A stretch of DNA of 22,433 nt from Candidatus Bathyarchaeota archaeon (GTDB lineage: Archaea; Thermoproteota; Bathyarchaeia; RBG-16-48-13; GCA-020345945), in contig CP070773.1 in the NCBI GenBank assembly GCA_020345945.1, positions 1 to 22,433 on the forward strand, read 5' to 3'. Below the pieces are notes generated by a model, which had not been told where the DNA came from, made no database searches, and saw nothing but the letters and a program-made list of their open reading frames with translations. The position numbers were made by a program, and so were the translations under genes. Each line of letters starts with the position of its first letter. The stretch's first letter is position 1. Positions 15,535 through 22,433 of the stretch are shown one piece after another.

Positions 15535-15611
15535 GGGCCGGTGGTCTAGTCTGGTAGGACATCGCCTTGACGTGGCGAGAGTCGCTGGTTCAAGTCCGGC
15601 CCGGCCCACCA
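15535..15611 (+). tRNA. tRNA-Val(GAC)
   Basis: 77-nt tRNA with encoded CCA. Acceptor GGGCCGG/CCGGCCC, D stem GTCT/GGAC, anticodon stem TCGCC/GGCGA around loop TTGACGT (anticodon GAC at 15569-15571), T stem GCTGG/CCGGC with one G-U pair and loop TTCAAGT. Discriminator A. No intron. Confidence 0.96.
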
Positions 15612-15658: not shown

Positions 15659-15667
15659 CCTTAAAGC
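15659..15667 (+). promoter_or_regulatory. Box A of tRNA-Phe
   Basis: CCTTAAAGC behind GAGAAAAA, 27-35 bases before the tRNA-Phe 5' end at 15694. Its position supports the 5' end proposed from the acceptor pairing. Confidence 0.5.
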
Positions 15668-15700
15668 ATTCTGCTTGAAATGATTCAAAGCACGCTGCGG

Positions 15701-15737
15701 AGTCCGCCGAGCACCTGAGATACGGTGCGCGGAACGG
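15701..15737 (+). other. tRNA-Phe intron 1 (acceptor/D junction, near position 7/8)
   Basis: 37 nt. It folds on itself: TCCGC (15703-15707) with GCGGA (15729-15733), then GCACC (15711-15715) with GGTGC (15724-15728) and an 8-nt loop. GG at both borders makes the exact cut ambiguous by two bases without changing the mature tRNA. A strict bulge-helix-bulge was not found, so it would be of the relaxed kind. Confidence 0.75.
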
Positions 15738-15749
15738 TAGCTCAGCCTG

Positions 15750-15766
15750 ACATAGACTTGGGCTAT
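15750..15766 (+). other. tRNA-Phe intron 2 (D loop)
   Basis: About 17 nt, borders uncertain by 1-2 bases. ATAG (15752-15755) pairs with CTAT (15763-15766) around a 7-nt loop. Removal leaves a D loop AGCCTGGGA with the conserved GG, between perfectly paired D-stem halves. Confidence 0.7.
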
Positions 15767-15785
15767 GGAGAGCGCCCGGCTGAAG

Positions 15786-15799
15786 AGAGCCTCTCGGAT
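15786..15799 (+). other. tRNA-Phe intron 3 (canonical 37/38)
   Basis: 14 nt at the standard site 3' of the anticodon. The bulge-helix-bulge is clear: CTGA (15780-15783) pairs with TCGG (15794-15797), the 5' bulge is AG/A (15784-15786) and the 3' bulge is AT/A (15798-15800), each cut after its second base. The inner hairpin is only a few bases. Confidence 0.85.
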
Positions 15800-15821
15800 A
15801 CCGGGTTGTCGCCGGTTCAAA

Positions 15822-15850
15822 ACCGAGGAAGACCCCTTTCTCGGGGAAAT
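15822..15850 (+). other. tRNA-Phe intron 4 (T loop, 59/60)
   Basis: 29 nt. The T stem is the outer helix. TTCA (15816-15819) faces GGAA (15845-15848; three pairs plus A-G) as central helix, with 3-nt bulges AA/A (15820-15822) and AT/C (15849-15851). CCGAG (15823-15827) pairs with CTCGG (15840-15844) as inner helix. Cutting after the second base of each bulge gives a normal 7-nt T loop. Confidence 0.82.
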
Positions 15851-15872
15851 CCCGGCCCGCGGCACCATCAAG

Positions 15873-15909: not shown

Positions 15910-15987
15910 GCGGCCGTAGTCCAGTCTGGTCTAAGACATCGGCCTGCCACGTCGACGACCCGGGTTCGAATCCCGGCGGCCGCACCA
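15910..15987 (+). tRNA. tRNA-Gly(GCC)
   Basis: 78-nt tRNA with encoded CCA. Acceptor GCGGCCG/CGGCCGC, anticodon stem TCGGC/GTCGA (one G-U) around loop CTGCCAC (anticodon GCC at 15946-15948), T stem CCGGG/CCCGG with loop TTCGAAT. Discriminator A. No intron. Confidence 0.96.
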
Positions 15988-16042
15988 AAATTATGTGCTC
16001 GTGGAGAGGTTGCTAGAACGAAGGACTCTCCTCGGATTGCGG

Positions 16043-16073
16043 GACTAAAACCGTGGCCTGCCAACTCGACGCC
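16043..16073 (+). pseudogene. Partial tRNA-Gly(GCC)-like duplicate
   Basis: GACTAAAACC, then TGGCCTGCCA and TCGACG, repeat the D-loop to anticodon-stem part of the neighbouring tRNA-Gly (15929-15957) with few changes. No acceptor, T arm or CCA follows, so this is a fragment, not a gene. Confidence 0.4.
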
Positions 16074-22153: not shown

Positions 22154-22433
22154 TTATTTCAAGGTCAATTCCGAAATCGAGTAATAGACGATTTCTCCTC
22201 TGCGATTCATAACGGCCAGGACTAACTCCTTCTTGAGGGTTTGAGACTGTCTTAGAACGCGAATCAAATCCTCCAAAGAGATAGGCTTTCCTTCTCGCAT
22301 ACTCAAGATCAAGTACCGAGCCGTAACTTCGCCATATTTGCCACGCTCGTAAACCCGGAAATCAACACCCCAACCAAAACCTCCGCGAACGACATAACCA
22401 CGGCTCTTCAAATCTCGATAGATCAAGTATTTA
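22154..22433 (-). CDS. endA: tRNA-splicing endonuclease subunit, C-terminal domain (5' end outside window; catalytic His replaced)
   Basis: The frame is open to the window edge, with KYLIYRDLKSRGYVV running across it, so the N-terminal domain lies beyond. The visible 90 residues (counted from the Met-like TTG codon at 22426) are the nuclease fold. The general-base Tyr is present (Tyr26 in DFRVYERG) and the Lys is present (Lys66 in LKKELVLAV). The His of the usual EHS-x-YLV motif is replaced: the sequence reads VTARYLI, with Thr35 at the His position. This suggests the structural, non-catalytic subunit of a heterotetrameric enzyme. The subunit removes archaeal tRNA introns at bulge-helix-bulge sites. 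It is upstream of hisS in one operon. Confidence 0.88.
   Translation of the reverse strand, partial: KYLIYRDLKSRGYVVRGGFGWGVDFRVYERGKYGEVTARYLILSMREGKPISLEDLIRVLRQSQTLKKELVLAVMNRRGEIVYYSISELTLK

Follow-up and report, generated by a model that had tools for sequence, protein, structure and literature searches.

A tRNA-Phe(GAA) gene with four predicted introns and a leader copy of its acceptor strand in a Bathyarchaeota archaeon

How many introns can a tRNA gene hold while its exons still join into one normal tRNA? This question is raised by a locus in the genome of a Candidatus Bathyarchaeota archaeon, within an analyzed stretch of 22,433 nucleotides (hereafter the window), where an earlier note had described a single tRNA-Phe(GAA) gene at 15694-15867 with four insertions of 37, about 17, 14, and 29 nt. 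The locus lies on the forward strand between two uninterrupted tRNA genes, tRNA-Val(GAC) at 15535-15611 and tRNA-Gly(GCC) at 15910-15987, both on the same strand and both detected by ARAGORN and Rfam. The unspliced tRNA-Phe gene was missed by ARAGORN and by the Rfam tRNA model, and ARAGORN with its intron option gave no call at the locus either. As a separate observation, a 30-nt stretch at 16042-16071, 114 nt downstream of the tRNA-Gly gene, resembles the D-loop and anticodon arm in that tRNA-Gly (77% identity) and is possibly a tRNA fragment.

A tRNA-Phe profile was built from the uninterrupted tRNA-Phe genes of relatives and aligned with introns allowed anywhere. Four introns were placed at the locus with a score of 91.7, compared with a best score of 13.1 in 60 dinucleotide shuffles and 31.0 for the next-best 400-base tile of the window on both strands. 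With the junctions set in the register of the splice motif described below, the gene occupies 15706-15867 and consists of five exons and four introns, with CCA encoded. Exon 1 comprises 4 nt (GCCG, tRNA positions 1-4, 15706-15709) and is followed by a 25-nt intron 1 at position 4/5 (15710-15734). Exon 2 (15 nt, positions 5-18, 15735-15749) is separated by the 17-nt intron 2, at D-loop position 18/19 (15750-15766), from exon 3 (19 nt, positions 19-37, 15767-15785), which contains the anticodon GAA. The 14-nt intron 3 lies at the canonical position 37/38 (15786-15799), exon 4 (22 nt, positions 38-59) covers 15800-15821, and the 29-nt intron 4, at T-loop position 59/60 (15822-15850), precedes exon 5 (17 nt, positions 60-76 with CCA, 15851-15867). 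The 3′ end, the sizes of introns 2, 3, and 4, and the excess of intron over exon sequence (85 versus 77 nt) agree with the earlier description. Intron 4 is placed one base to the right of the register that gives the four sizes claimed earlier, and the 5′ end and the first intron had to be revised.

The joined exons (77 nt) form a full cloverleaf of one isotype. ARAGORN called tRNA-Phe(gaa) from a 76-base join near that of the earlier note and also from the corrected 77-base join. Moreover, the product is identical at 76 of 77 positions to an intact tRNA-Phe gene in a genome of another family (G026; 99% over 77 bases by BLAST). The window genome is one contig of 1,186,195 bases and is rated 66% complete, so that a second tRNA-Phe copy could be missing from it and the locus could be a decayed pseudogene with insertions whose working counterpart lies elsewhere. 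The full cloverleaf and the identity to the intact gene argue against such decay, as do the fit of all insertions to the splice motif, one with a mismatch, and the sharing of their sites with relatives whose exons stay intact; a decayed gene is extremely improbable. The earlier note had proposed a check for another intact tRNA-Phe gene, and a sequence pattern applied to this 66% complete genome gave a single match, at this locus. When the joined exons served as a BLAST query against the same genome, three matches came up at E ≤ 1, and both matches listed were this locus; the corrected join gave one match at E ≤ 0.001. Other unusual architectures were rejected as well. A split, trans-spliced tRNA does not fit five exons that lie in order within 162 bases, a permuted tRNA with the 3′ half first does not fit exons in normal order, and a pseudogene with broken stems or lost conserved bases does not fit the cloverleaf and identity given above. 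We consider it highly probable that 15706-15867 is a working tRNA-Phe(GAA) gene with four introns that would be spliced by bulge-helix-bulge (BHB) cutting.

The BHB motif has a 4-bp central helix and 3-nt bulges, and the cut falls after the second base of the bulge. In the window gene, this rule reproduces the canonical 37/38 site, and the motif fits all four junctions, the fourth with one mismatch. Intron 1 has the central helix CCGC/GCGG (4/4 pairs), whose 5′ strand includes two leader bases, together with bulges CGA and AAC, predicted to be cut after CG and AA, and an inner helix of 5 bp. The central helices of intron 2 (AGCC/GGCT) and intron 3 (CTGA/TCGG) also have 4/4 pairs, while that of intron 4 (TTCA/GGAA) has 3/4 pairs with one A-G mismatch and is accompanied by an inner helix of 9 bp. 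A full 4-bp central helix is present at three junctions, not at two as had been claimed for textbook geometry. When junctions were placed at random 20,000 times on one shuffled stretch, 4/4 central pairs arose in 8% of the cases. In the scored introns of the window and its relatives (n = 66, with two genes that are present in two loci counted twice, L180 left out and L194 absent), 55 had 4/4, 10 had 3/4, and 1 had 2/4 central pairs.

The folding of the precursor was less uniform. In the unconstrained fold at 37°C, the central helix had a probability of 0.90 in intron 1 and 0.68 in intron 3, compared with 0.01 in intron 2 and 0.02 in intron 4. The precursor structure with all four motifs had −64.4 kcal/mol compared with a minimum of −82.5 kcal/mol, that is, it was 18 kcal/mol weaker. 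The low probabilities of introns 2 and 4 and the weaker all-motif structure count against BHB splicing of all four introns, as do the mismatch in intron 4 and the detection, in the 66% complete genome, of a single endonuclease subunit that has no catalytic His. Such low stability would mean either that splicing is ordered, or that the enzyme selects the motif, or that the energy model misjudges bulged motifs.

The profile alone set intron 1 rightward of its final register by one base. The intron was moved to fit the BHB register, and the move also restores acceptor pair 5-68. The correction of the 5′ end concerns GCTGCGG at 15694-15700, on the same strand as the gene, which the earlier note had taken as the acceptor 5′ strand, with a 37-nt intron 1 at 7/8 behind it. 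In favor of this assignment, all seven bases of GCTGCGG can pair with CCGCGGC, the 3′ acceptor strand, with one G-U among the pairs, and this pairing is part of the precursor's minimum-energy fold. Against this assignment, the 37-nt intron has at most 3/4 central pairs in every register that leaves the product unchanged, and the join rebuilt from the four sizes is identical to the intact gene of G026 at 74/77 positions, compared with 76/77 for the corrected join. In relatives, moreover, the copy lies 3 to 10 nt before an acceptor strand that is complete or is broken by the 4/5 motif or an 8/9 intron. A 37-nt first intron is thus very unlikely. Since GCTGCGG duplicates the acceptor 5′ strand in the leader and is not that strand itself, the gene start was moved from 15694 to 15706 and intron 1 became the 25-nt intron at 4/5.

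The intron sites of the window gene were then compared with those of related genomes. An order-mate (G002, locus L142) has the same tRNA order Val-Phe-Gly and a tRNA-Phe gene with three introns at 4/5, 30/31, and 59/60. Sites 4/5 and 59/60 are common to both genes, and the intron sequences are unlike; the two 4/5 introns agree in central helix and bulges, and they differ in the inner hairpin and in length (33 nt versus 25 nt in the window). Two further genomes (G004 and G006) have introns at 18/19, 30/31, and 59/60, of which 18/19 and 59/60 are common with the window. Besides G004 and G006, the 18/19 site was found in G072, G093, G028, G078, G044, G066, G060, G084, and G023, and the 59/60 site recurred in G002, G004, G006, G072, and others.

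Among 101 genomes searched, a tRNA-Phe gene could be placed in 60, the window genome included. Nine loci with other tRNAs or low scores (L053, L141, L145, L146, L159, L168, L169, L173, and L176) were excluded from this count, and a break was not scored as an intron if it fell at profile column 73 or later (missing CCA). No intron was present in 29 genomes, one in 12, two in 3, three in 13, and four in 3 (the window, G023, and G048); fragmented hits were preferentially fetched, so the intron-rich share of this set is no rate. Four introns at 8/9, 18/19, 37/38, and 59/60 were found in G023, G048, and G057 (L225-L227), all of genus g18, and four at 8/9, 18/19, 37/38, and 46/47 in G103, G105, G075, and G036 (L233-L236) of genus g30. 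In total, eight genomes in three families have a four-intron tRNA-Phe gene, with three combinations drawn from a shared set of sites. From this distribution, rather than from a tree, we infer that the four-intron state was reached more than once.

The seven four-intron relatives of the window, which belong to two other families, each carry a leader copy of the acceptor strand. A leader copy was defined as a stretch within 20 nt upstream of the gene that pairs 7/7 with the 3′ acceptor strand. In the 60-genome set, it was present in nine genomes (the window, G002, G023, G048, G044, G066, G060, G084, and G063). All nine were among the 19 genomes with at least two introns, compared with none of the 41 with fewer, and the other 10 intron-rich genomes had no copy. 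All four genomes with a 4/5 or 8/9 intron had the copy, compared with 5 of the 56 others. No copy preceded any of 95 distinct tRNAs predicted by ARAGORN in the examined loci (33 called Phe), some of which rely on the intron option and may be wrong. The exact pattern of GCCGAGG, 3-12 bases, and GCCGAGGTAG matched in 16 of the 256 genomes of the class, and the reversed pattern in 3. The 16 matches comprised 4 unrelated sequences and 12 tRNA-Phe genes, of which 1 has two introns, 8 have three, and 3 have four; the pattern demands the copy, so the exactness of the copy among its matches proves nothing.

Because this pattern itself required the copy, a pattern of exon sequence that ignores the leader was run on 13 unmatched genomes of family f21 and on G012 and G032, and it matched in 7 of these 15 genomes. 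The four complete genes with an 8/9 intron (G103, G105, G075, and G036) all had a 7/7 copy 3 to 4 bases upstream. Neither an 8/9 intron nor a 7/7 copy was found in G012 and G032, the latter having a 6/7 match. G069 has the 8/9 intron on a contig that ends inside the gene, which places it outside the copy count, and 6 of the 18 genomes of genus g30 (G087, G101, G102, G090, G107, and G040) matched neither pattern. Altogether, eight genes whose introns include 4/5 or 8/9 were found independently of the copy, and all eight carry it; this count excludes G057, which was located through the copy. The letters of the copy track those of the acceptor strand: GCCGCGG or GCTGCGG occurs with the 3′ strand CCGCGGC, and GCCGAGG with CCTCGGC, while the spacers and flanks differ.

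The window has a TATA-like element, CTTAAAG, at 15660-15666 on the same strand, a consensus match only, 46 bases upstream of the mature 5′ end, and its leader copy is on this ground probably transcribed. In the nine genes with a copy, the TATA-like box is found 40-50 nt upstream, compared with 32-37 nt in 25 of 40 others (40-49 nt in 10 of the 40); the comparison leaves aside 11 of the 51 copy-free genomes, in which no good TATA-like match was present. The difference has p = 0.0008, which is no true probability because the genomes are related. The greater distance of the box in genes with a copy suggests that the copy lies inside the transcript.

The effect of the copy on folding was evaluated with 40 scrambled versions. 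Scrambling lowered the probability of the intron 1 helix of the window from 0.90 to 0.32 at 37°C and from 0.80 to 0.32 at 60°C. The values with the native and the scrambled copy were 0.13 and 0.05 (37°C) and 0.07 and 0.02 (60°C) in G023, and 0.23 and 0.18 (37°C) and 0.65 and 0.27 (60°C) in G048, which is weak support in both cases. G002 changed in the opposite direction, with 0.05 versus 0.41 at 37°C and 0.24 versus 0.40 at 60°C. In G084 and G060, which have no acceptor intron, the 46/47 helix reached 0.80 and 0.67 with the copy and 0.02 and 0.00 with scrambled versions at 37°C, and the 37/38 helix 0.05 and 0.71 compared with 0.67 and 0.99. Scrambling changed the helices of G044 and G063 little. 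These mixed results, lowered in the window and raised in G002, speak against a simple chaperone role of the copy.

Two explanations of the copy were weighed. It may be a placeholder that holds the 3′ acceptor strand while the true 5′ strand is split or held in a splice motif, and that is displaced after splicing. This role was strengthened by the four further 8/9-intron genes that were found without using the copy and all had it; we put it forward tentatively, at somewhat less than an even chance. Alternatively, the copy may be without a role in splicing, as a relic or as a by-product of duplication; it could, for example, stem from a former intron in the acceptor region. Copies before genes without a 4/5 or 8/9 intron fit a relic, as do the lack of either intron in 9 of the 12 tRNA-Phe genes that the copy pattern had located, the disagreement of the folding tests between genomes, and the intron-rich genomes that have no copy. 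The presence of the copy in all independently found genes with a 4/5 or 8/9 intron, its sequence following that of the acceptor while its surroundings differ, and the more distant TATA-like box argue against a relic, which we regard as having a chance not far from even. For the g30 genes without an 8/9 intron, an explanation of the 10-base repeat in front of them by an intron was rejected, since GCCGAGG has no self-complementary 4-base stretch and could form no central helix.

Genes for splicing proteins were searched in the same genome. The window contains a gene for a tRNA splicing endonuclease subunit (PF01974, E = 2.2e-23) at 22154-22433 on the minus strand, which runs off the window edge. 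The subunit was aligned with 1a79 and read by eye; we take the catalytic residues in this alignment to be the His, Tyr, and Lys positions. The Tyr and Lys positions are kept and the His position reads Thr, for which reason the protein is probably a structural subunit. Only this subunit, and no catalytic partner, was found in the 66% complete genome. An RtcB gene is present at G000:C1:1024968-1026275 (E = 1.9e-173). G002 has two endonuclease subunits, one with His at the catalytic position and one without, as compared by eye. According to the available text of a review, the two-subunit endonuclease is linked to non-canonical and multiple introns (PMC4090602), and the G002 pair, judged by its residues, fits this enzyme type. 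The RtcB match of G002 (G002:C2:90883-93678, minus strand) comes in two parts within one open frame of 1032 aa and looks like a protein carrying an intein.

Several other loci of the genome were noted in passing. A T-arm pattern search gave 20 matches, and a rough alignment of ten loci with the tRNAs of relatives gave hints of more tRNAs with two to four insertions. Two of these loci, L189 and L197, are other tRNA genes with perhaps three and four insertions, at scores too low to count; the query of 37 tRNAs included 21 Phe and lacked most isotypes, scores were low, and none was counted. In addition, two isolated tRNA 3′ ends (L203 and L204, on the minus strand near 240881 and 244692 of G000:C1) are separated by 3.8 kb, and an inverted T-arm copy precedes each of them (GGGCTTGAACC tttaaa GGTTCGAATCCC). 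They are perhaps attachment-site remnants or the 3′ halves of a split tRNA.

From the observed anatomy of the gene, its junction geometry, the shared sites, the endonuclease subunit gene, and the RtcB gene, we propose the following order of processing. The primary transcript would start just before the leader copy, and each junction would fold into a BHB. In each 3-nt bulge, the splicing endonuclease would cut behind the second base, and the exons would be joined by RtcB. Since two leader bases belong to the intron 1 central helix in the window and in G002, removal of this intron would have to come before 5′ trimming by RNase P. In genes with an 8/9 intron, the central helix CGAG/CTCG covers acceptor positions 3-6. 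As the true 5′ acceptor strand is split or lies in the splice motif in genes with a 4/5 or 8/9 intron, it would be unable to form its normal pairs until splicing is complete. During this time, the leader copy would pair with the 3′ acceptor strand, and after splicing it would yield to the true strand.

The earlier note had compared the gene with those of Thermoproteales; the host here belongs to Bathyarchaeia. A 667-aa protein encoded in the window shows 59-67% identity to the best 80 of 302 loci from the species genomes, most of them recorded as Bathyarchaeota, Bathyarchaeia, Bathycorpusculum, or Hecatella(les) and a few under broader names, among them the top match, 'Thermoproteota archaeon'; the second-best match, Candidatus Hecatella orcuttiae, is a member of Bathyarchaeia. 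The multi-intron tRNA genes of Thermoproteales (Pyrobaculum and Thermofilum) resemble the window gene in having several short BHB introns at canonical and non-canonical positions. However, in the published text available, the maximum in archaea is three introns per tRNA gene (PMC8450103, PMC4033280, PMC3218864, PMC3293823), in line with the earlier note's view that four would lie at or beyond the known range, and for Thermoproteales no leader copy is mentioned there, whereas the window gene has four introns and a leader copy of the acceptor strand. A literature search covering few subscription papers found neither an earlier archaeal tRNA gene with four introns nor a leader copy of an acceptor strand. 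In the Asgard archaea Atabeyarchaeia and Freyarchaeia, 92-95% of tRNA genes have introns, over half of them several and often at non-canonical positions as in the window (PMC11291895); the available text of that paper gives no maximum per gene, and a four-intron Asgard tRNA gene may exist. Split and permuted archaeal tRNAs share with the window gene a leader outside the mature tRNA that base-pairs during processing, as far as the available descriptions go (PMC3218864, PMC3293823). Unlike in those tRNAs, the exons of the window gene are in order within 162 bases, and its leader would pair with the acceptor 3′ strand and not with a junction trailer. Judged by its sequence, the window gene is a multi-intron BHB tRNA gene with one intron more than the published maximum that we found.

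With four introns in a 77-nt RNA, this gene is well suited for asking how fragmented an RNA gene can become and still be spliced. A splice motif that spans the mature 5′ end implies that splicing should precede 5′ trimming, and through the recurring leader copy the folding of multi-intron precursors can be tested directly. Since the window gene escapes ARAGORN and Rfam, these archaea may seem to lack more tRNAs than they actually do. If the placeholder role is true, the copy would be a built-in RNA folding aid that allows introns in and beside the acceptor stem.
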